From NCBI RefSeq assembly GCF_024746795.1, contig NZ_CP080524.1, positions 3,264,001 to 3,328,000 of the forward strand: a stretch of 64,000 nt of DNA, given 5' to 3'. How positions within the stretch are numbered: the first letter of the stretch is position 1; the number at the start of each line of letters is the position of its first letter. The stretch is from Mesorhizobium sp. AR10. Its GTDB lineage: Bacteria > Pseudomonadota > Alphaproteobacteria > Rhizobiales > Rhizobiaceae. The notes beneath the pieces are model-generated. The model searched no databases. It had not been told where the DNA came from and saw only the letters and a list, made by a program, of their open reading frames with translations. The position numbers were made by a program, and so were the translations under genes. This document shows positions 42,487 to 53,129 of this stretch, one piece after another.

Positions 42487-43188
42487 TCACCGTCGCGGGT
42501 ACAGGTATCCCACGCCGCGGATCGTCTTGATCAGCTCCGGTTTGGTCGGATCCTTCTCGATCCGGCGGCGCAGCCGGGTGATGCGGCTGTCGATGCTGCG
42601 GTCGAAGGGCTCGTCGCCCCTGGGTGGCGCAAGATCGAGCAGTTCGTCGCGACCGATGACCTGCCCGGCCCGGGTGGCGAAGGCCGCCACCAGATCAAGC
42701 TCCATCGGGGTCAGCGCCACGGCCACGCCATCGGCGTCTCTGAGGCTTCGCGCGTTTGCATCGAACACATAGGCTCCGAAGGCGAAGTGCCCGGCCGGCA
42801 AGATCTCGGCACCGTTCAATCCCTTCGGCCTGCGCCTGCGCAGCACAGCGTCGATCCGTGCCTCCAACTCGGTCGGCGCGAAGGGCTTCACGAGATAGTC
42901 GTCGGCACCGACCTCCAGGCCCGCCACCTTGTCGAAGACCGAATCGGCGCTGGTCAGCATGACGATGCCCGTGTCGTGATGCTCACGCAGCCAGCGGGCC
43001 AGGCTGAAGCCGTTCTCGCCGGGCATGTTGAGGTCGAGAACGACAAGGTCGGTCTTTGCCGCGGTGATCTCCTCACGCAGTTCGGCGCCGCCGGATGCCG
43101 TGCGGACGCTGTAGCCCTTTGCCTGCAGATAATCGGCGATCATGAACGCCACGTCGGTCTCGTCGTCCACGACAATGATGTCGGCCAT
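42487..43188 (-). CDS. OmpR-family response regulator
   Basis: A protein of 233 residues from ATG 43188. The receiver domain (residues 1-115) has the acidic pocket DDE, phospho-acceptor D52 in LVVLDLNMPG, and K101 in GADDYLVKPF. The C-terminal winged-helix domain has TPMELDLVAAFATRAGQVIG, DRSIDSRITRLRRRIEKDPT and the end IKTIRGVGYLYPRR. It is divergent from the hybrid kinase 297 bases away and about 35% like the second regulator by eye, so it may receive phosphate from the same kinase. The target genes are unknown. Confidence 0.93.
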   Translation of the reverse strand: MADIIVVDDETDVAFMIADYLQAKGYSVRTASGGAELREEITAAKTDLVVLDLNMPGENGFSLARWLREHHDTGIVMLTSADSVFDKVAGLEVGADDYLVKPFAPTELEARIDAVLRRRRPKGLNGAEILPAGHFAFGAYVFDANARSLRDADGVAVALTPMELDLVAAFATRAGQVIGRDELLDLAPPRGDEPFDRSIDSRITRLRRRIEKDPTKPELIKTIRGVGYLYPRR

Positions 43189-43485
43189 GCGTTTCCCCGG
43201 ATGCAAGCGGCGAGCGACCACCTGAGCGTACAGGGCATTCGTCCGGGGTCAACTGCAAGGGTTGCCTTGCCCTGATGTCCGGCTCCGGCTGAAACAATGG
43301 CGGTCAGGAAAACTGGCGTCGCGGCATCGTCATGAAACCTCGCCGCGCCAAGGTGCGCGGCAATGCCATCAACGATGCCTAGCCGTCGCGGACGGCCGGC
43401 TTGACAGGTCGGGAGCCGTACCATCCACTGGCCATAAGGGAACGGCGCCATCGCGACCGGCGCATCCGTCAGCGGAGATCTCGCC

Positions 43486-45657
43486 TTGCCGACCCCCTCG
43501 AACCCGCCATTGTCCAGGCGTTACGCATTGACGATGGCTACCTGCAGCCTGCCTCTGGTGCTGCTTGTCGCTGGTCTCGGTCTGCATCAGTCATACAGCT
43601 GGCAAGCACCGCTTCATCCTTACGCGATCATAATGGTTGGGCTGCTTGTCTTCCTGTTTGCCATGTACAGGATGCTTATGCGCGAGTTTGTCCGTCCGAC
43701 GGCCATTCAGGGCGCCGACGACGCCGAGCAGGGGCTTGCCCTCGAGGCGCTGGAAGCCAGCGAGCAGCGCTATCGCAGCGTCGTTGAACTGCAGACCGAA
43801 TTCGTCGTCCGCATGTCGCCCGACGGCTACCTGACCTTCGTCAACGATGCCTATTGCCGGGCATGCCGGATGACGCGTGAACAGCTACTGGACCCGTCCT
43901 GGTGCGAACTCGACGTGCTGCCGCCGGACGAGCGGCGCAGGTTTGTCGAGCATCTTGGCCGTCTCACCCCGCAGGCCCCGAATGCCAGCATAGAACTCAT
44001 CAATGCGATGCCCGATGGCATCAACCGATGGCTGGCGTGGAACGATCACGGCATTTTCGACGACGAAGGCCGGCTGATCGAGGTGCAGTCCGTCGGCCGC
44101 GACATCTCCGACCGCGTGTTCGCCGAACAGGCACGCGTCGAGGCAGAGAAGCTTTCGGGGGAGAGGGAGGCGCAGTTTCGCGCCATCGCCGAAGGCGTGC
44201 CGCTGCCGATCACCATCTCGGCAATCGAAGGGCCCGAAATCCTGTTCGTCAATGAACCGGCACGCAAGATACTTGGCATCGAGGTTGGCCAGGTCGGAGC
44301 AGAAGCGATATCGACCTGGGAAAGCCGTGCCCGGCGCGACGATCTCATGCGGCTTCTGCTGAGAGACGGCATTGTCGACGCGTTCGAAGCCGGCATGACC
44401 ACCATGCAAGGGTCGAGGATCGATACGCTGGTTTCGGCGCGCCTGATCACGCAGGCCGGTCGTCCCGCCATGCTCGCAGCCGTCACCGACATCACCCGCC
44501 AGCGGGAAGCCGATGCGGAGATCGCACGCCAGCGTGAGACGCTGTATCAATCCGAAAAGCTTTCCGCGCTCGGCTCGCTGCTGGCCGGCGTAGCGCATGA
44601 ACTCAACAATCCGCTGTCCGTCGTCATCGGTTACAGTTCGATGCTGAAGGAATTTTCGACCGACAGCGCGACCGTGGGACGGGCCGACAAGATCCACGCG
44701 GCGGCCGAGCGATGCTCGCGGATCGTGCGCACGTTCCTGGCGATGGCGCGCAAGAAGCCGCCGACGAGAGGAACCGTCGACATCAACGAAGTCGTCATCG
44801 CCTCGCTGGAACTTGCCGCCTACAGCTTGCGCTCGGCCGGGATCGAGATCCGGACCGAACTGGAGGAAGGACTCGCCAGCATCTGGGGCGACCGGGACCA
44901 ACTGCATCAGGTCATCACCAACCTGGCGGTGAATGCACAGCAGGCCTTGCTGCAGGTGCCGCATCCGCGGCGGCTGACGATCATCACCACGGGGGAAAAC
45001 GGCGCCGTCGAGATCGTCGTGGCCGACAACGGTCCGGGCATGTCGGAGACTGTGCGGGCGCGTGCTTTCGAGCCTTTCTACACGACCAAATCGGCCGGCG
45101 AGGGCACCGGCGTCGGCCTGTCGGTCTGCCATGGCATCGTGACGGCCCATGACGGCAGCATAGAGCTGGATTCGACCGAGGGCGGCGGGGCACGGTTTAC
45201 GATCCGGCTTCCGAGCGGCAAGACCGAGGCTTCGGCGCCGGCGACGGCCGGCAAGGCGCCGCCCGCGCCATCGGCGGCCCGCATTCTGGTGGTCGACGAC
45301 GATGTCGATATTGCCACGATGATCGCCGAGATGCTTAGACGTGATGGCCACGACGTGACCATTGCCGATGATGCGCATGCCGCCCTCAGGGCGATGCGCC
45401 ACGAAAGGGTCGACCTGCTGATCAGCGACATACGCATGCCCGGCCTCGATGGCCCCGGCCTCTATCGCGCCTTGGAGGAGGTGCGTCCTGGGCTCGCCAG
45501 CCGCCTGCTGTTCGTGACCGGCGACACGCTGGCCCCTGAGATCGATCGCTTCATCGGCGAGACAGGCGCGCCCGTCATCGAAAAACCGCTCGATCCGCAA
45601 GGCTTTCGCAGGCTGGTGACGGAACGCCTGCGCGCGATGGACGAGGTCGGAGGGTGA
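43486..45657 (+). CDS. Hybrid sensor histidine kinase with PAS domains and a C-terminal receiver
   Basis: A protein of 723 residues from TTG 43486, with GGAGA about eight bases upstream; ATG 43534 is an alternative. Two membrane helices (residues about 18-34 and 45-62) bound a very short periplasmic loop, so signals are probably sensed in the membrane or cytoplasm. A PAS domain (about 93-215) and a second PAS-like region (225-340) precede the HisKA domain with H371 in VAHELNNPLSVVIGYSSML. The ATPase domain has N483 (NLAVNAQQAL), DNGPGMS and the GTGVGLSVCHGIV loop. A receiver domain follows with D648 (LLISDIRMPG). It overlaps a response regulator gene by four bases. Confidence 0.94.
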   Translation: MPTPSNPPLSRRYALTMATCSLPLVLLVAGLGLHQSYSWQAPLHPYAIIMVGLLVFLFAMYRMLMREFVRPTAIQGADDAEQGLALEALEASEQRYRSVVELQTEFVVRMSPDGYLTFVNDAYCRACRMTREQLLDPSWCELDVLPPDERRRFVEHLGRLTPQAPNASIELINAMPDGINRWLAWNDHGIFDDEGRLIEVQSVGRDISDRVFAEQARVEAEKLSGEREAQFRAIAEGVPLPITISAIEGPEILFVNEPARKILGIEVGQVGAEAISTWESRARRDDLMRLLLRDGIVDAFEAGMTTMQGSRIDTLVSARLITQAGRPAMLAAVTDITRQREADAEIARQRETLYQSEKLSALGSLLAGVAHELNNPLSVVIGYSSMLKEFSTDSATVGRADKIHAAAERCSRIVRTFLAMARKKPPTRGTVDINEVVIASLELAAYSLRSAGIEIRTELEEGLASIWGDRDQLHQVITNLAVNAQQALLQVPHPRRLTIITTGENGAVEIVVADNGPGMSETVRARAFEPFYTTKSAGEGTGVGLSVCHGIVTAHDGSIELDSTEGGGARFTIRLPSGKTEASAPATAGKAPPAPSAARILVVDDDVDIATMIAEMLRRDGHDVTIADDAHAALRAMRHERVDLLISDIRMPGLDGPGLYRALEEVRPGLASRLLFVTGDTLAPEIDRFIGETGAPVIEKPLDPQGFRRLVTERLRAMDEVGG

Positions 45658-46352
45658 CCAGGCAGAAATTGCTCATCGTCGACGACGAAGCGCCCTTGCG
45701 CGAGATGCTGTGCGACTACCTGCCGCTGCACGGCTTCGACGTGCGAGCTGTTGCGGATGGAGCGGCCATGTGTGCCGAACTCGAGCGCTTCGGTCCCGAT
45801 CTCGTTATTCTCGACGTCAACCTTATCGGCGAAAGCGGCTACGATCTCGCCCGCGAAATCGCCAAGCGGGGCCGCGCCGGAATCCTGATGCTGACCGCTG
45901 TCGGTGATCTGCCGCATCGGCTCGAAGGTCTCGCCGCCGGCGCCGACGACTATATGGCCAAGCCGTTCGAGCCGCGCGAACTTCTGGCGCGCGTCAGGAG
46001 CGTTATCCGGCGCCTTGGCGAGGAAGAGCGGGCGCCGGAAAACCGAATCCGTTTCGGCCGCTGCGTCCTCGATATGGATGGCCGCACGATGGTCGATCCT
46101 GACGGCGCCGACGTGCAGTTGACGTCGATGGAATTCGACCTTCTGTGCGTGTTCGCGCGTCATCCTCGGCAGATACTGTCGCGCGACCAGCTTTGCCGGC
46201 TGGCGCACAACCGCGACCTCGAGCCTGGCGACCGCAGCATCGACATCCGCATCACGCGATTGCGCAAGAAGTTCGAAAGCGAACCGGACGCTCCGGCTGT
46301 CCTGGTGACGGTTCGCGGCGAAGGCTATGTCTACGAGCCTGCCCCACGGTGA
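45654..46352 (+). CDS. OmpR-family response regulator, coupled to the hybrid kinase
   Basis: A protein of 232 residues starting at GTG 45654, overlapping the kinase stop (GTGA), so it is the cognate partner by context. The receiver has phospho-acceptor D54 (LVILDVNLIGESG) and K103 (GADDYMAKPF). The DNA-binding domain has TSMEFDLLCVFARHPRQILS, DRSIDIRITRLRKKFESEPD and the end VTVRGEGYVYEPAPR. With the divergent regulator it makes a one-kinase, two-regulator group. Possible targets are the neighbouring secreted proteins, which is only a guess from position. Confidence 0.93.
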   Translation: MTRQKLLIVDDEAPLREMLCDYLPLHGFDVRAVADGAAMCAELERFGPDLVILDVNLIGESGYDLAREIAKRGRAGILMLTAVGDLPHRLEGLAAGADDYMAKPFEPRELLARVRSVIRRLGEEERAPENRIRFGRCVLDMDGRTMVDPDGADVQLTSMEFDLLCVFARHPRQILSRDQLCRLAHNRDLEPGDRSIDIRITRLRKKFESEPDAPAVLVTVRGEGYVYEPAPR

Positions 46353-46414: not shown

Positions 46415-47110
46415 TTATGCGACTGGCTTGCGTGCCCTGCGAAATTCTCTTCGCAAGCCCCGGACAGCGTCCCGAACGACAGGAATGGCCCAGCGCGCTG
46501 TCGCGGTGGCGATCAGCAGCCCGGCCACCGGATCGATGAAGCGGGCAATGATCGTGCCCTGCCAGATCATGGCTGTTGCGAGCGACGTGACGATGAGCAG
46601 GTTAGACGAGAGTTTGTCCGAGAACAGACAGATCTGCGCGCGTGCCAGCGCGGAAGCGGCAAGTGCGTTGCGGGCCTTCCAGCGACGCAGGATCCAGAAG
46701 TTGACCGCCGCGTAGGCCAGGTTCAGGTTCATGGCGAGAACGACGCCTGAGCCGTGCGGTTCGACACCGCCGGCCGCGATGCGCTGGACCGCGATGCCGG
46801 CGACGACAGCCATCGAAAGGCACATGCCGAGGGCAGCGAGCGCATTGACGAGCGTTTCAGCCAGGGCTGCCCGCCGCTTGCTCATGCCCAGTTTCTTGCT
46901 GCCGCTGGCGACAGCCAGGACGGAGACCAGCACCAGCATGTCCATCAGCGTCAGCGCGAGATCGGCGGGGATGGTCAGCGAGGTGGATGTCGCCGCCGCG
47001 TATGCGGTCAGCAGCAGGCCCGGGGTGCCCGCCAGCACCGCCAGACGTGCCGTCCGCGCCGCCGTCGCCTCGCCATCCGATTTGTCATTGGTTTTTCGCA
47101 GAGGTTGCAT
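46415..47110 (-). CDS. Cation-diffusion-facilitator-like membrane protein lacking the C-terminal domain
   Basis: A protein of 231 residues from ATG 47110, with GAGGAGAT upstream; the larger frame to 47872 is not supported. Six membrane helices fit the CDF (cation efflux) fold, and FIDPVAGLLIATATARWAIP is a standard CDF helix 6. The usual cytoplasmic metal-binding domain (about 80 residues) is absent. The helix 5 site, normally HxxxD, reads CLFSDKLSS, that is CxxxD, and helix 2 has DLALTLMDML. Metal transport is therefore doubtful or altered. It is convergent with the second response regulator. Confidence 0.75.
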   Translation of the reverse strand: MQPLRKTNDKSDGEATAARTARLAVLAGTPGLLLTAYAAATSTSLTIPADLALTLMDMLVLVSVLAVASGSKKLGMSKRRAALAETLVNALAALGMCLSMAVVAGIAVQRIAAGGVEPHGSGVVLAMNLNLAYAAVNFWILRRWKARNALAASALARAQICLFSDKLSSNLLIVTSLATAMIWQGTIIARFIDPVAGLLIATATARWAIPVVRDAVRGLRREFRRARKPVA

Positions 47111-47410: not shown

Positions 47411-47815
47411 ATGAATCGCCTTATGACCTACATGGCTGCTGCCTCGGCAATGGCTTGCTTCGTGGCACCGGCCGGCGCTGCGGGCCCGGAAGGCTCGAAC
47501 GGCAAATCGCTGAACGGCCTGAAGCACAATTCGCTGACCAGCAACTCGCTGACCAGCAATGCGATCTTCACGAATGGCCTCGGTGTCTATGCGCTCAACG
47601 GCGTGCATGCCGACGGCATCGTTCTTGCGAAAAGCCTCGTCAGGGCCGGCGGCTCCATTGTCGACTCGAACGTGGGCAATTTGCCGGCTGTCCAGAAGAG
47701 CAATGCCCAATCGTCGACCGCCAGCAAGCAAAGCAACGACCTTCCGGCTGGCCACAGCGTTGGCGGCGGCGATGGGAGCAACCATGACCGGCCGACCCCC
47801 TCGCCAAGGCGTTAG
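47411..47815 (+). CDS. Small secreted protein with asparagine-every-five repeats
   Basis: A protein of 134 residues from ATG 47411 (AAGGAAA upstream); a longer frame to 47312 is rejected because this start gives a signal peptide (MNRLMTYMAAASAMACFVAP, cleaved near AGA). The mature start has asparagine at residues 30, 35, 40, 45, 50 and 55, each from N35 followed two residues on by Leu or Ile (37, 42, 47, 52, 57, then 62), in units such as SLNGL, KHNSL, TSNSL, TSNAI and FTNGL. This is like pentapeptide-repeat solenoids but with the Asn one place earlier. The rest is Ser/Asn/Gly-rich and probably disordered. The function is unknown. Confidence 0.7.
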   Translation: MNRLMTYMAAASAMACFVAPAGAAGPEGSNGKSLNGLKHNSLTSNSLTSNAIFTNGLGVYALNGVHADGIVLAKSLVRAGGSIVDSNVGNLPAVQKSNAQSSTASKQSNDLPAGHSVGGGDGSNHDRPTPSPRR

Positions 47816-47946
47816 GATTCGGACCCTGCTGACAATGGAACGGATGGCTACGCGCCTTCCGTTCTCAGTCAACGATCGCCGCCGAAAGTGCCGGCTTTTG
47901 GCCGCGCTTCATCCACCACTTTCAGGACTGCCGCCAGGAGCCCAAA

Positions 47947-48807
47947 ATGTCACCCCACCGCCTCATCCATTTTGGCCGCCACGTATTGGTCATTGTTGCC
48001 ACAGCCATTTCCGGTATGGCCGCGCTGCCTGACGCCGAGGCCGGGACCGGACAGGCGATCAGCTCGATCGCCGTTGAAGGCACAAGGTTCGTGGTGACGA
48101 CGGGAGACGGTCGCGTTGTCCCTCAAGATGATCTCGTCGGCGCCGTCCTGACGATTGGTGACGGACAAGACCGGATGCCGCTGCGCATCGACGCGGTCGA
48201 GACCGATCCGAGGAATCCGGATGGCGGGATCATGCTCTACACAATGTCGAGCCGTGACGCGGCTACCGGCCAATGGCGCAACATCTGCGAACCCGACATC
48301 GAAGGCCGGCGCATGGGCTTTCCGCTCGCCGGCACCTGGACGCAAGACGGCCGCCATCTGCCATCCGGCACGGCCTTCAGCATTACCTGCACCGGCGGCG
48401 CCCAGGCGAAATGCGCGCGTTTTGGCTATCGGCCCTGGGAGAGCTTGCCGGACGGCACGTCGCTCTGGGATCATCATCAGGCGTGTACCCGGATGATCCG
48501 CGCCGACTATTGCGGCGATGGCGTCGGTCATACGCGCAACGGGACGCCGATCGTCATCTATGACCGGAACGGCATTCAGCAGGACGAGGCCGCGCCGGGC
48601 ATGTCGTTCGAAGCGGCATGGGGTGCCGACGGCGCGCTTTGCGTCAACCGCACCAGAATACCCGACGTGCTGACGATGGAGGGACTGGCGGCGATCTGCC
48701 CGGGCGTGCAGCAACAGCCGCAGGCAGCGGCATGCGAAAGCCATGCCGGGGCGCTGATCCTGAACCGTTCAATTGATCCGCGAACGGTTCAAGCCGCCGC
48801 CAAATAG
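47947..48807 (+). CDS. Secreted ADYC-domain protein
   Basis: A protein of 286 residues with AGGAG before ATG 47947. The N-terminus has a signal peptide (VLVIVATAISGMAALPDAEA). The core shows a conserved pattern known as the ADYC domain: AKCARFGYRPWESLPDG (residues about 155-170), HHQACTRMIRADYCGDG with ADYC at 186-189, then GTPIVIYDRNGI. Eight cysteines (114, 148, 156, 180, 189, 232, 251, 263) could form four disulfides, which fits export. The domain's function is not known to me. It follows the repeat protein gene by 131 bases on the same strand, and may be in one operon with it. Confidence 0.78.
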   Translation: MSPHRLIHFGRHVLVIVATAISGMAALPDAEAGTGQAISSIAVEGTRFVVTTGDGRVVPQDDLVGAVLTIGDGQDRMPLRIDAVETDPRNPDGGIMLYTMSSRDAATGQWRNICEPDIEGRRMGFPLAGTWTQDGRHLPSGTAFSITCTGGAQAKCARFGYRPWESLPDGTSLWDHHQACTRMIRADYCGDGVGHTRNGTPIVIYDRNGIQQDEAAPGMSFEAAWGADGALCVNRTRIPDVLTMEGLAAICPGVQQQPQAAACESHAGALILNRSIDPRTVQAAAK

Positions 48808-48852: not shown

Positions 48853-49878
48853 TCAATCGCTGTCGCGCGCGACCAACTCCAGCGGCCAGACCTCGCGGAT
48901 GATGCGCGGACCTTCCGGGCCGGCGAAGGCCGGGATCGAGGCCAGCAGCATTTCAGCCAGCCGCTGTCCCATCGGCTCCAGCGCCGGGCGGAAGGCGGTC
49001 AACGCCGGGGAAAAATAGCGGCAGAGCGGTGTGTCGACGATGACGGTCACCGCCATGTCGTGACCGGGCTTGATGCCCATTTCGGCCAGCGCCTTGCAGC
49101 CGCCAAGCGCCATCGCGTCATTGTTGAAGATGATGGCGGTCGGCGGGTTCTTGGAGCGCATCACCTGCGGCGTCACCGCGTAGCCGCCCGCCTCGTTGAT
49201 GAAACCGGAGGCGATCAGTTCGGGGTCGACCTCGATGCCATGCCGCCGTAAGGCTTTGCGATAGCCAGCCAGGAACAGATAGCCGAAATTGAGGTTAAGC
49301 GACGGGCGGACGGCGGCGATGCGTCGGTGGCCGCGCGCCACCAGCCTGTCGACCGCATCGGCCCCGGCCTTTTCGAAATCGAGATCCAGCGAGGGATAGG
49401 ACTTGGCACCGGAGCGGCTGCGGCCGAGCGTGGCGAAGGGGAAGCCGGTCTGGGTGAGATAATCGATGCGCTCATCCTCACGCCGTGTCCAGGCCAACAC
49501 CACAGCGTCGGCACGGCGCGTCTCGACGACGCGGCGCAGCCGCTCCTGCTGGTAGTCGCCGGGCGCGCCCATGACCACGATCAGGTCGAGCCCGCTTTCG
49601 GCGAGCCTGGCCTGCAGCCCGATCAGGAACGGAATGAAGAACGGCTCGCCATATTGCTGGTCGCCCGGATGCGGCTGCAGCATGAAGGCGATCGAATGGG
49701 TGGCGCCTTGCCGCAGGCTGCGGCCGGACTGGTTCGGAGAATAGTTCAGCGTCTTGGCTGCCTCGAGCACGCGCTGGCGCGTGTCGGCATTGACGTCGGC
49801 GCGGCCGTTGAGCGCGCGCGACACGGTGCCGATCGAAATGTTCAGGTGACGCGCGAGGTCGTGGATACTGGACGCCAA
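48853..49878 (-). CDS. LacI-family transcriptional regulator
   Basis: A protein of 341 residues starting at TTG 49878, with GGGGGAGA about ten bases upstream. The N-terminal helix-turn-helix and hinge read IHDLARHLNISIGTVSRALN, GRADVNADTRQRVLEAAKTL, NYSPNQSGRSLRQG, with the hinge leucine. The rest is a periplasmic-binding-protein-like sensor domain (SIAFMLQPHPGDQQYGEPFF, IIFNNDAMALGGCKALAEMG). It is divergent from a sugar catabolism and uptake operon, and a palindromic LacI-type operator lies in the shared gap. It most likely represses that operon until the sugar binds. Confidence 0.94.
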   Translation of the reverse strand: MASSIHDLARHLNISIGTVSRALNGRADVNADTRQRVLEAAKTLNYSPNQSGRSLRQGATHSIAFMLQPHPGDQQYGEPFFIPFLIGLQARLAESGLDLIVVMGAPGDYQQERLRRVVETRRADAVVLAWTRREDERIDYLTQTGFPFATLGRSRSGAKSYPSLDLDFEKAGADAVDRLVARGHRRIAAVRPSLNLNFGYLFLAGYRKALRRHGIEVDPELIASGFINEAGGYAVTPQVMRSKNPPTAIIFNNDAMALGGCKALAEMGIKPGHDMAVTVIVDTPLCRYFSPALTAFRPALEPMGQRLAEMLLASIPAFAGPEGPRIIREVWPLELVARDSD

Positions 49879-49988
49879 TAGACAGTTCTCCCCCTTGCTT
49901 GGCTAGCACCGGCAGCCGCTCAGGCCAAGGCGATAAGACGATTTTTGCAAGCGGCCAATTGACATTCTACGCCTTCGGGTGTGTTCTC

Positions 49989-50014
49989 GTAAACGTTTAC
50001 GGAAAAACGTTTAC
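49989..50014. promoter_or_regulatory. LacI-family operator pair
   Basis: Site 1 is the perfect 14-bp palindrome CGTAAACGTTTACG at 49988-50001 (core GTAAACGTTTAC). Site 2, AAACGTTTACG from 50005, repeats the core and right arm but has a mismatched left arm. The centres are 14 bases apart. Palindromes with a central CG and AAACGTTT core are typical for LacI/GalR regulators. The pair lies 110 bases from the regulator start and 62-88 bases before the dehydrogenase start, so it can control both promoters. Confidence 0.85.
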
Positions 50015-50075
50015 GGCCATGCCGTCAATGCCGTGACGATCGGTCTGGAGGGACCGAGCGGAGGAGGAGCGCTGG

Positions 50076-51110
50076 ATGATGGATGTCGTCCTGGTTGGCT
50101 GCGGTGCGATGAGCAAGCACTGGCTCGATGCCGTCAGGCAGATCGACGGGCTCAGGATTGCCGGCCTTGTCGACCTCGACGCCGACCGGGCTCGGGCGAG
50201 GGCGCGCGAATACGACCTTGCCAGCGCCGTTATTGGAACCAGCCTCGACGCCGTGCTCGATCAAACGAAACCGCAGGCGGTGTTCGACGTAGTTGTTCCC
50301 GCCGCCCGGCGCGAGGTTGCGATCTCCGCCTTTGCGCACAATTGCCACCTGCTGACCGAGAAGCCGCTGGCGGACACACCCGACAATGCGCGCGCCATCG
50401 TCGGGGCCGCGCGCAGTGCCGGGCGTATCCATGCCGTCGTCCAGAACCGCCGCTATGTCGCCAATGTCAGGCGCATCAGGCGCTTTCTCGATTCCGGCGC
50501 CATCGGTGCTGCGACCAGCATCCATGCCGACTTCTTCGTCGCGCCGCATTTCGGCGGTTTTCGCGAGGAGATGGCCCATGTCCTGCTGCTCGACATGGCG
50601 ATCCACACATTCGACGCCGCCCGCTACATGGTCGCCGGCGAGCCGGCCGGCGTCTATTGCCAGGAATGGGAACCGGCCAATTCCTGGTACCGGCAGGGGT
50701 CGTCGGCCAGCGCGGTCTTCGATCTCGGTGGCGGCAAGCGATTCACCTACGCCGGCAGCTGGTGCGCTGCCGGCTTCCGCACCAGCTGGGAGAGCACATG
50801 GCGCATCGTCGCCGAGCGCGGCAGCCTGGTCTGGGACGGCGAGGATGGGCTGAAGGCGGAGGTCGTGCTGCCTGTCCGTGACGGCTTGTTCGACCAAACC
50901 CAGCCGATCGTCGTGCCGCCGCTCGATCCCGCCGACCGTATCGGCGGTCATCTCGGCATCATCCAGGATTTCGTCCACGCCATCGAAGCCGGCGCCGAGC
51001 CGGAAACGCGCGGTGCCGACAACATCAGGAGTCTGGCCATGGTCTTCGGCGCCATCGAGAGCGCCGAAACCGGGCGCCGGGTGGCGATTTCTGCGCAGGA
51101 AGGACAATGA
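50076..51110 (+). CDS. Gfo/Idh/MocA family oxidoreductase
   Basis: A protein of 344 residues. The N-terminal Rossmann fold has VVLVGCGAMSKHWLDAV and the family motif LLTEKPLADTPDNARAIV (EKP with the catalytic-type Lys). The C-terminal domain has IHADFFVAPHFGGFREEMAH and LLDMAIHTFDAARYMVAGEP, with the His/Asp of the sugar site in DMAIHTFD. Such enzymes oxidise the hydroxyl of inositols, glucose-type sugars or related compounds with NAD(P). As first gene of a LacI-controlled operon with an ABC sugar importer, it probably acts on the imported compound. The specific substrate is not readable. Confidence 0.92.
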   Translation: MMDVVLVGCGAMSKHWLDAVRQIDGLRIAGLVDLDADRARARAREYDLASAVIGTSLDAVLDQTKPQAVFDVVVPAARREVAISAFAHNCHLLTEKPLADTPDNARAIVGAARSAGRIHAVVQNRRYVANVRRIRRFLDSGAIGAATSIHADFFVAPHFGGFREEMAHVLLLDMAIHTFDAARYMVAGEPAGVYCQEWEPANSWYRQGSSASAVFDLGGGKRFTYAGSWCAAGFRTSWESTWRIVAERGSLVWDGEDGLKAEVVLPVRDGLFDQTQPIVVPPLDPADRIGGHLGIIQDFVHAIEAGAEPETRGADNIRSLAMVFGAIESAETGRRVAISAQEGQ

Positions 51111-52015
51111 TGCCAAACCCGCTTCTCGACATCAGAATCGGCACCATGGTGCGGGCCAATCTCGACGACCCGGCCGCCTATATCAAGGCGATCCTGCCGC
51201 TCGGCTTCGAGAGCATCCAGCCCTTCTTCTGGCAGACGCTGGGCGGCAAGGACCTGCCTCGGCTCGCCGGCCAAATCCGCGAGGCGATCGGCGATGCCGA
51301 CGTTACCGTGTCCTCGATCGGCGTGTTCGGCAATCCGCTGGAGAGCGGCGATGTCGATCGCGGCGTGCTCGAGGCCTGGGAAACGGTGATCGACAACGCG
51401 CACCTGTTCGGCACCAGCATGGTCAGCGGCTTCACCGGCCGCATCCGCGGCAAGCCGTTGCCCGAAAGCCTGCCGCGCTTCCGCGAAGTCTGGGGGCCGT
51501 TGGCCAAACGCGCCGCCGACAAGGGTGTGCGCATCGCCTTCGAGAACTGCGCTATGGACGGCAACTGGGCAAGCGGCGACTGGAACATCGCCCACAATCC
51601 GGACGCCTGGGAGCTGATGTTCAACGAACTGCCGGATGACAATCTCGGCCTGGAATGGGAGCCCTGCCACCAGCTCGTCTACCTGATCGATCCGATGCCG
51701 CAGATCCGCAAATGGGCGCCGCGCATCTTCCACGTGCATGGCAAGGACGCGACGGTGCGCTGGGACGTGATCCGCGAACATGGCGTGTTCGGCCGGCTAC
51801 CGTTTGTGCAGATGCGCACGCCTGGCTTCGGCGACAGCGACTGGACACGGGTGATCAGCGAGTTGCGGCTGGCCGGCTACAAGGGCGCCATCGACATCGA
51901 GGGCTGGCACGACCCGGTCTATCGCGGCGACCTGGAAATCACCGGTCAGGTGCGGGGGCTGGAGTATCTCAAGCAATGCCGGGGAGGTGCCAGCTACCTG
52001 CCGAATCCGGTGTGA
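51107..52015 (+). CDS. Sugar phosphate isomerase/epimerase (xylose isomerase-like TIM barrel)
   Basis: A protein of 302 residues; the ATG at 51107 overlaps the previous stop (ATGATG). The AP_endonuc_2/xylose isomerase-like fold shows metal ligands in RIAFENCAMDGNW (Glu), LGLEWEPCHQLVY (Glu, His), RIFHVHGKDATV (His) and GAIDIEGWHDPVY (Glu). Members isomerise or epimerise sugars and inositols (for example IolE/IolH types). It is translationally coupled with the dehydrogenase, so the two probably act in sequence. The exact reaction is unknown. Confidence 0.9.
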   Translation: MMPNPLLDIRIGTMVRANLDDPAAYIKAILPLGFESIQPFFWQTLGGKDLPRLAGQIREAIGDADVTVSSIGVFGNPLESGDVDRGVLEAWETVIDNAHLFGTSMVSGFTGRIRGKPLPESLPRFREVWGPLAKRAADKGVRIAFENCAMDGNWASGDWNIAHNPDAWELMFNELPDDNLGLEWEPCHQLVYLIDPMPQIRKWAPRIFHVHGKDATVRWDVIREHGVFGRLPFVQMRTPGFGDSDWTRVISELRLAGYKGAIDIEGWHDPVYRGDLEITGQVRGLEYLKQCRGGASYLPNPV

Positions 52016-52020
52016 GTGCA

Positions 52021-52041
52021 GGCCGGCGGGAGGTGCCGGCC
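52021..52041 (+). terminator. Hairpin between the isomerase and binding-protein genes
   Basis: GGCCGGC (52021-52027) and GCCGGCC (52035-52041) form a 7-bp GC-only stem five bases after the isomerase stop. Such hairpins can stop part of the transcript or protect upstream mRNA. A similar one follows the binding-protein gene. Confidence 0.45.
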
Positions 52042-52115
52042 AGGCAAGATTTGCGGCGCACTGCCGATCGTCGAAAACCCCTCGGCTAGCGAGGAAACAA
52101 AGGGAGGATAAGTGC

Positions 52116-53129
52116 ATGAGCATGACGATGAGAAGGACACTTCTGCACTCGACCGTCTTGGCCGCCGCCACGGCGCTCGCCGCTGCAATCTCGACCTTGC
52201 CGGCGCAGGCGCTCGACGCCAAGTGGTGCAAGGACGTCCACATCCGCTTCTTCGTCGGCGGCGCCGAAGGCGACGCCTTTGGCACCATCGTCTACAATGG
52301 CGCCAAGCAGGCCGAGGCCGATCTCGGGCCGAAGGTCGACTACATCTTCTCCCAGTGGGACGTCGAAAAGATGGTGCAGCAATTGCGCGAAGCGGTCGCG
52401 GTCAAGCCCAACGGCATCGCCATGATGGGTCATCCGGGAGATGCGTCGATCATGCCGCTCGCCGAACAGGCGCATAAGGACGGCATCAAGATGATGTATC
52501 AGAACGTGCCGGTGCCGAAGGTGACGGCGGCGTTCGGCGGCGGTTATATCGGCGCCCAGCAAGAGCAGCAGGGCCGGGCACTCGGCGCCGAGGCGTTCAA
52601 GCTCGCCAAGCTAAAGGCCGGCGACAAGGCGATCATGATCGGTCCGTTCGAGAATGAGAGCCGCGGTGCGCGCGAGCGCGGGACGGTCGCCGCACTCAAG
52701 GAAGCCGGCGTCGAGGTCATCCAGCTGTCGTCGCCGCCAAGCGGCGAGTGGGCTTCCGACCCGAATCTCGCCATTCCGGTGATCACTGCGGCCCTGCTCA
52801 ACAATCCCGATGTCAAGGCGGTCGGCTATCCCGGCGGACAGATGCTCGGCAATGTTCCCACCTACATGCAGGCGGCAGGACGGAAGGCCGGCGATATCTT
52901 CAACTTCGGCTTCGACACCAGTCCGCAGATCGTCGAGGGTTTCAAGGGCGGCTGGGTGCAGCTGACGGCCGACCAACAGCCGTTCCTGCAGGGCTATCTG
53001 CCGATCCTCAGCCTCTGCCAGCAAGTGGTGCTCGGGCTGGCGCCGATGAATGTCGACACCGGCGCCGGTTTCGTCACGCCTGAAAATTACGAGATCGTCG
53101 CCGAACTCGCCAAGCAGGCGCTGCGCTGA
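52116..53129 (+). CDS. Sugar ABC transporter substrate-binding protein (CUT2/ribose type)
   Basis: A protein of 337 residues from ATG 52116, with GGGAGG ten bases upstream; the long frame to 51987 is not real. The signal peptide runs through LLHSTVLAAATALAAAISTL and is cleaved after AQA. The mature protein is a Peripla_BP_4-type sugar binder (IRFFVGGAEGDAFGTIVYNG, AVKPNGIAMMGHPGDASIMP, NPDVKAVGYPGGQM). It captures the sugar in the periplasm for the downstream ATPase and permease. Hairpins before and after its gene may raise its level relative to the membrane parts. Confidence 0.93.
   Translation: MSMTMRRTLLHSTVLAAATALAAAISTLPAQALDAKWCKDVHIRFFVGGAEGDAFGTIVYNGAKQAEADLGPKVDYIFSQWDVEKMVQQLREAVAVKPNGIAMMGHPGDASIMPLAEQAHKDGIKMMYQNVPVPKVTAAFGGGYIGAQQEQQGRALGAEAFKLAKLKAGDKAIMIGPFENESRGARERGTVAALKEAGVEVIQLSSPPSGEWASDPNLAIPVITAALLNNPDVKAVGYPGGQMLGNVPTYMQAAGRKAGDIFNFGFDTSPQIVEGFKGGWVQLTADQQPFLQGYLPILSLCQQVVLGLAPMNVDTGAGFVTPENYEIVAELAKQALR

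Follow-up and report, generated by a model that had tools for sequence, protein, structure and literature searches.

A putative secreted asparagine-pentad repeat protein encoded beside an ADYC-domain protein in Mesorhizobium sp. AR10 and in other bacteria

A pair of adjacent genes of Mesorhizobium sp. AR10 encodes a small protein in which asparagine recurs at every fifth residue (REP) and, immediately downstream, an eight-cysteine protein of the ADYC family, and an asparagine-pentad partner accompanies ADYC, as a neighboring gene or within the same chain, at most of the ADYC loci sampled from a wide range of bacteria. The interpretation that we prefer, with a rough probability of 0.45, is that the two proteins are the halves of one secreted cell-envelope module, in which ADYC supplies a head and the repeat an arm. 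For ADYC, a domain of unknown function, the pentad arm that usually lies beside or within ADYC proteins is the first candidate partner, so that the role of the domain becomes testable with two small genes of a harmless soil organism. Neither a function of ADYC nor the ADYC-repeat pair was found in searches of the open-access literature; the AR10 protein is a clear member of the Pfam family PF20032, whereas the repeat partner, frequent in the present sample, is absent from the literature found. The window referred to below is the whole stretch analyzed, 64,000 nucleotides of contig NZ_CP080524.1 (forward strand, positions 3,264,001 to 3,328,000).

RESULTS

Sequence Features of the Pair

REP has asparagine at residues 30, 35, 40, 45, 50, and 55 and leucine or isoleucine at residues 37, 42, 47, 52, 57, and 62, exactly as an earlier reading of the DNA, made without database searches (the sequence-only reading), had claimed, and the period-5 score of the mature protein (6, for 110 residues including 12 Asn) was matched by 6 of 200,000 residue shuffles. 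Both REP and the ADYC protein begin, as judged by eye, with Sec-type signal sequences; the only Cys of REP, residue 16, lies within the leader, and the mature repeat has none. The Pfam scan of the window protein gave no family for REP at E ≤ 1, and a search of 5.8 billion proteins returned 51 proteins, the query included, at E ≤ 1e-3, of which all those with an organism in the name are from Mesorhizobium. In an alignment of 36 of the 51, NSLTS-like pentads in variable number are followed by the conserved block LNGVHADGIVLAKSL, then by a variable 8-residue repeat (SVIDPNxR-like) and by LPAVQ. The tandem repeat in the DNA that encodes the pentads (Table 1) would allow slippage, and the length of REP ranges from 111 to 158 residues among the 14 Mesorhizobium proteins used to estimate selection. 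The rough per-site ratios of nonsynonymous to synonymous change in those 14 sequences are 0.255 for REP and 0.185 for the ADYC gene, whose rows run from stop to stop and hence include some leader sequence; both genes look, from these comparisons, to be under purifying selection in Mesorhizobium.

The downstream protein scores 186.1 bits against PF20032 (187.3 in the genome scan), for a cut-off of 27, and its description in the sequence-only reading as a secreted eight-cysteine protein with the ADYC motif is borne out, the leader by eye. In an alignment of 28 sequences Cys114, Cys148, Cys156, Cys180, and Cys189 are invariant and Cys232, Cys251, and Cys263 nearly so, and among 43 chosen sequences that include distant fused members the polar residues Lys155, Arg182, Arg185, Asp187, Tyr188, Asp206, and Glu222 are also invariant. 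Genome scans found a single place each for REP and ADYC in AR10. No terminator-like site was found on their strand in the gap between the two genes, which are probably co-transcribed.

Table 1. Positions of the gene pair, its parts, and its conserved neighbors in the window
Feature	Position	Strand	Remarks
Gene 1 (REP), ORF for putative secreted Asn-pentad repeat protein	47411..47815	+	134 aa; stop codon in span
Putative leader of gene 1, roughly residues 1-24	47411..47482	+	By eye; hydrophobic run with APAGAA at its end; kept in the family alignment
Asn-every-5 region, REP residues 30-62	47498..47596	+	Pentad number differs among relatives
15-bp tandem repeat (DNA level)	47527..47559	+	2.2 copies, 94% matches
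REP residues 62-76, LNGVHADGIVLAKSL	47594..47638	+	By eye against tails of L039, L040, and L047; most invariant columns of the family
Intergenic stretch REP-ADYC	47816..47946	+	131 bp; no terminator-like site found on + strand; AGGAG upstream of ADYC start
Gene 2, putative secreted ADYC protein	47947..48807	+	286 aa; stop codon in span; PF20032, E 8.2e-55
ADYC domain, residues 61-238	48127..48660	+	PF20032 match
ADYC motif, residues 186-189	48502..48513	+	Alignment of 28 sequences
Hybrid histidine kinase (PAS, HisKA, HATPase, receiver)	43486..45657	+	Conserved neighbor within Mesorhizobium
Response regulator (receiver and Trans_reg_C)	45654..46352	+	Conserved neighbor within Mesorhizobium
Divergent cation-diffusion-facilitator (CDF)-like membrane protein	46415..47107	-	Below curated cut-offs

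Occurrence and Neighbors in Mesorhizobium

Among 146 Mesorhizobium genomes ADYC was found in 16, REP in 16, and both in 15, and in all 15 the REP gene lies on the same strand immediately upstream of ADYC; an intact copy of either gene without the other was met in none of the 146. One of the 15, G153, has its ADYC gene across two frames (its locus, L016, scores the same as L038). The ADYC gene of L038, from Mesorhizobium amorphae CCBAU 01570, is likewise in two reading frames and is either broken or affected by a sequencing error. Four further genomes carry deletion scars from which most or all of both genes have gone. Two of the four, G294 and G224, are the genomes in which only one member of the pair had been detected. 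In G294 window base 42738 is joined directly to 48512, and the end of ADYC alone remains; in G224 there remain a piece of the response-regulator gene at 42487, a fragment of the repeat, and the very end of ADYC. G187 and G240 lack REP and most of ADYC, 47236 being followed within about 10 bases by 48612 or 48613; since this junction is common to the two, it may reflect a single event. The co-occurrence of the two genes in other genomes, which the sequence-only reading had set beforehand as one of its tests, is thus seen within the genus as well as in the broader sample described below. In the wider family 2 of 151 genomes carry ADYC, as do 2 of 349 in a phylum sample, AR10 being counted in both, and this rare and patchy occurrence suggests transfer or frequent loss.

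The hybrid kinase, the response regulator, and the CDF-like gene precede the pair as a block, present in 11, 12, and 13, respectively, of 13 Mesorhizobium loci; those without the kinase or the regulator start inside the block (L026 and L030). The CDF-like protein scores 23.4 bits against TIGR01297 (cut-off 82.35) and 17.4 against PF01545 (cut-off 26.6), and its gene is present in 17 of the 146 genomes, namely all 15 with the pair together with G187 and G240. These last two also retain matches to the kinase and regulator genes, the three genes having 82-91% identity and the kinase being in two pieces in G240. The sequence-only reading had placed the pair next to a two-component locus and suggested a test of control by its regulators; the neighborhood is conserved in Mesorhizobium, but among 92 flanking ORFs outside the genus only 3 have a response-regulator domain and only 3 a kinase domain. 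This rarity, together with the retention of matches to kinase and regulator in two genomes without the pair, indicates that regulation of the pair by this locus is possible but not general. That tally took at most one ORF per side (92 of 102 selected rows), and no Pfam family occurred in more than 3 of the 92, so that a recurrent third gene was not found beside the pair. Recurrent modifying enzymes, as would be expected beside the precursor of a ribosomally made modified peptide, were not found in these immediate flanks.

On the outer side of the block a second response regulator, recognized by eye (window 42487-43221, - strand), adjoins it, and that gene contains the starting points of the G294 and G224 scars. 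Downstream of the pair, window positions 48853-53129 encode a LacI-type regulator, a GFO/IDH/MocA oxidoreductase, a xylose-isomerase-like protein, and a substrate-binding protein (the last by eye), which looks like an ordinary cluster for sugar or polyol catabolism; this side is common to 2 of the 13 Mesorhizobium loci.

ADYC Loci in Other Bacteria

For a broader sample the ADYC alignment alone was scanned over one genome per species, and the best 80 of 165 relatives, a motif-selected set, were kept; a script then gave each ORF a score for Asn recurring with period 5, with a threshold of 3. An Asn-pentad protein was found with ADYC at 60 of the 80 loci, upstream at 42, downstream at 2, and fused at 16, with Mesorhizobium contributing 12 of its 13 loci and other organisms 48 of 67. 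Of the other ORFs in the same 80 loci, 10 of 9,780 reached the threshold, these controls being six-frame ORFs that are mostly not genes. The count is 60, 56, and 49 of 80 at scores 3, 4, and 5, as against 5.2%, 0.5%, and 0.03% for shuffles, it being understood that the locus score is the best of several nearby ORFs and that the shuffles are of the chosen ORF alone. What had been suspected to be a small two-gene system of a rhizobium is therefore conserved far more widely. The loci represent Alpha-, Beta-, and Gammaproteobacteria, Cyanobacteria, and Myxococcota, together with a small number of other groups; it should be noted that, with ADYC in so few genomes of the phylum sample, the breadth of its spread rests on this motif-selected best 80 of 165.

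Among the 20 loci below threshold, 11 have a partner recognizable by eye that is degenerate or of Gln type (L033, L053, L055, L065, L068, L072, L077, L078, L083, L091, and L103), L076 has only the partner tail, the sequences of L062, L080, and L092 are truncated or in fragments, and at L042, L061, L086, L098, and L102 neither the score nor reading of the loci by eye revealed a partner. Two partner genes stand in tandem upstream of one ADYC gene at L047, L055, L059, and L073. The partners are short putative secreted proteins with NG-rich pentads, and many have tails that resemble AVxLPxGxxxxVR; the strict motif is present in 13 of 27 partners, as compared with a mean of 1.4 and a maximum of 6 in 2,000 shufflings. 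By eye, the REP family has a block corresponding to this tail and then an extension of its own, and on these sequence comparisons the LNGVHADGIVLAKSL block probably corresponds, in Mesorhizobium, to the C-terminal tail seen in other partners. A profile comparison of the REP family with the other partners gave a probability of 96.8%, driven by the repeats.

All 16 fused loci are from myxobacteria or unclassified relatives, with the repeats N-terminal to ADYC, and 14 of the 16 proteins have lipoprotein-type leaders by eye, the exceptions being L085 and L096. The sequence-only reading had mentioned NG- or QG-rich five-residue repeats near ADYC proteins in myxobacteria, and the connection proves closer than stated there, the repeat being part of the ADYC chain in 16 of the 80 loci; QG-type repeats were found in Solimonas and Peristeroidobacter (L074, L077, and L103). 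In a tree of 73 ADYC domains a single branch (SH-aLRT 87) sets off all 18 fused rows, and split forms lie elsewhere, including three labeled Myxococcota (L048, L049, and L083). Absence of a partner is scattered over this tree (7 changes for 7 rows), in which L065 is coded as partnerless yet is counted above among the partners recognized by eye. The tree is a quick one, with SH-aLRT support only, and omits L062, L080, L092, nine of the 13 Mesorhizobium loci, and the paralogues L137-L174. Those further ADYC loci, mostly paralogues from Nannocystis, Hyalangium, and Archangium, reach the threshold in 6 of 38 cases (L149, L159, and L173 are the same as L098, L132, and L086, and L145 overlaps L157), which indicates that many ADYC proteins have no arm. 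ADYC is expanded to 23 places in G633 (Nannocystis poenicansa) and 31 in G643 (N. exedens), and many of the G643 places looked at are without repeats.

Repeats Apart from ADYC

In the converse direction, a profile of 27 partners from outside Mesorhizobium was searched in 22 ADYC-carrying genomes, 12 of which had supplied members, so that matches in those 12 are expected by construction; G633, G643, and G650, of 24 ADYC genomes, lay outside this search. Of the 53 places that the profile found, spread over 19 of the 22 genomes, 21 have an ADYC place no more than 2 kb away, and the three genomes with no match include one whose own partner (L043) is in the profile. In AR10 the only place found was REP itself (E 4.1e-8), with a profile that holds no Mesorhizobium member. 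A further 11 genomes with a match, Panacagrimonas aside, are proteobacterial or cyanobacterial, and all 13 of their places adjoin ADYC. Panacagrimonas and six genomes of myxobacteria account for the remaining 32 places. Nine such myxobacterial proteins were read, and in these the repeats head a different Cys-rich domain (eight were aligned), which cannot be aligned with ADYC beyond the repeats. Five of these proteins gave only a GLTT repeat hit against Pfam, and two gave nothing against NCBIfam. They are lipoprotein-like, of about 280-330 residues, and comprise L194, L199, L200, L206, and L190 from Archangium (G647 and G649) and L201-L204 from Polyangium. Panacagrimonas has five loci with partner-like genes and no ADYC place nearby. 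Two of these genes in Panacagrimonas perspica G644 (L208:2946-3572 and L210:2569-3078, both - strand) directly adjoin a hybrid sensor kinase, that of L208 lying between a response regulator and the kinase, with kinases and regulator identified by eye. The association is therefore strong from ADYC to the repeat and less so from the repeat to ADYC, and the second myxobacterial head and the Panacagrimonas genes indicate that the repeat is not exclusive to ADYC.

Predicted Structures

In the AlphaFold model of the fused protein L105 (351 residues, 36 alignment rows) the ADYC part is mostly confident, and residues 91-120, which are still repeats, have pLDDT values of 87-92 and form strands leading into the ADYC domain, whereas the near-perfect repeats of residues 25-86 fall under 50 with this shallow alignment. 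The split repeat protein L051, with 18 pentads and again a shallow alignment, has a mean pLDDT of 54 and a pTM of 0.19, its repeats being at 40-49. The sequence-only reading had described residues 30-62 of REP as solenoid-like and had named the lack of a predicted regular structure there as a refutation; these models are of longer relatives rather than of that segment, and since most of their repeats have no regular structure predicted with confidence, they lend no support to a free-standing solenoid. What the L105 model does support is a short stretch of order at the junction of repeats and ADYC. No PDB fold stood out as a match for the AlphaFold model.

Comparison with pentapeptide repeat proteins (PF00805 and PF13599) reveals a shared five-residue period with one hydrophobic residue per unit. 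Residues 85-123 of L105 match PF00805 with 32.0 bits (cut-off 20.2), a level missed by L051, L073, and L063, and since the match covers the ordered stretch of L105, the Asn repeat may be a diverged cousin of the pentapeptide repeats. The pentapeptide-repeat consensus is A(D/N)LXX, whereas the present repeats have Asn-Gly with the Asn in a shifted register; REP differs further in having no Pfam match, and the models of L105 and L051, made from shallow alignments, predict no free-standing β-helix.

DISCUSSION

In the module that we favor, the ADYC protein would be a globular head locked by disulfides, and the small protein a repetitive Asn-pentad arm, closed in many lineages by a conserved tail that resembles a strand. 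The two parts form one chain in many myxobacteria, usually with a lipoprotein-type leader, and there the last repeats run into the N-terminal strands of ADYC; elsewhere, including AR10, the separate products of adjacent genes would be expected to assemble outside the inner membrane, with the arm docking on the same strands. Contact between REP and ADYC is suggested by the confinement of fusion to one clade, the order predicted for the last repeats, and the conserved tail, and location in the envelope by the lipoprotein leaders of most fused forms. The module would most likely act at the cell surface by binding a polysaccharide, a surface, or another cell, the reach of the arm being set by the number of repeats; adhesion, as put forward in the sequence-only reading, is a guess. 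The pentads, the adjacency of the genes, their fusion and joint loss, the signs of selection, and the leaders recognized by eye are observed, whereas co-transcription, contact, disulfides, a surface location, and binding are inferred. Several observations weigh against the module: the pLDDT of most L105 and L051 repeats is under 50, the further ADYC loci mostly score below the threshold, five loci of the main sample show no partner, and the same repeats head another Cys-rich domain in myxobacteria and occur without ADYC in Panacagrimonas.

The low confidence of the repeats could have another meaning, namely that the repeat protein, in which every five residues include a turn (NG or NS), is unfolded as a monomer and assembles outside the cell into an elastin- or amyloid-like fiber for which ADYC is the anchor or nucleator. 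The absence of a confident monomer fold for most repeats in both models is as expected for such a matrix, and so is a pentad number that differs between relatives. Among structural repeat families, the partner L046 also has a weak Lamprin match (32.8 bits against a cut-off of 34), and L200, which carries the other myxobacterial head, matches GLTT with 38.4 bits (cut-off 21), but both matches may reflect composition alone. Six pentads, as in the Mesorhizobium copy, are few for a fiber, and assembly or export genes do not recur in the immediate flanks; a self-assembling matrix is thus unlikely.

We regard as quite unlikely a secreted pentapeptide β-helix, capped by ADYC, that modulates the envelope and is tied in Mesorhizobium to envelope or metal stress through the kinase, the regulator, and the CDF-like transporter. 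The score of the L105 repeats above the PF00805 cut-off and the position of all three genes beside the pair in Mesorhizobium are in its favor, but REP itself has no Pfam match at E ≤ 1, its Asn is shifted from the pentapeptide register, no β-helix is predicted for L051, and matches to all three neighbors persist in G187 and G240 without the pair. The model for this proposal is YjbI of Caulobacter, a pentapeptide protein that is secreted and belongs to the outer membrane; its gene is among the targets of UzcSR, a two-component system that responds to metals (PMC12864828). It is the nearest described analogue found, resembling REP as a small repeat protein of an alphaproteobacterium, secreted (for REP, by a signal recognized by eye) and linked to a two-component system. 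The quadrilateral β-helix of YjbI is flanked at both ends by Cys pairs, whereas mature REP has no Cys and so lacks such flanking pairs, and no ADYC partner was met in passages describing YjbI (PMC12864828).

The seven invariant polar residues of ADYC would suit an enzyme or a toxin-like domain with the repeat as its substrate, propeptide, or inhibitor, and the N-terminal position of the repeat in the fusions is like that of a prodomain. Neither the fold nor the sequence comparisons, however, gave an enzyme match that stands out, and modifying enzymes do not recur in the immediate flanks of the pair, so that this interpretation is improbable. Some ADYC genes have no partner, as chance neighbors would, but the adjacency counts against the control ORFs, the fusions in one clade, and the joint loss in four genomes make a lack of joint function very unlikely.

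Returning to the head-and-arm module, we propose tentatively that it represents a new class of two-part envelope structure, made either as two proteins or as one fused chain, in which a variable-length arm of NG turns would gain order only by stacking on the N-terminal strands of the head, for whose fold no known match stood out. The arm would be reused in myxobacteria with the second, uncatalogued Cys-rich head, which suggests that one repeat arm can be combined with more than one head.
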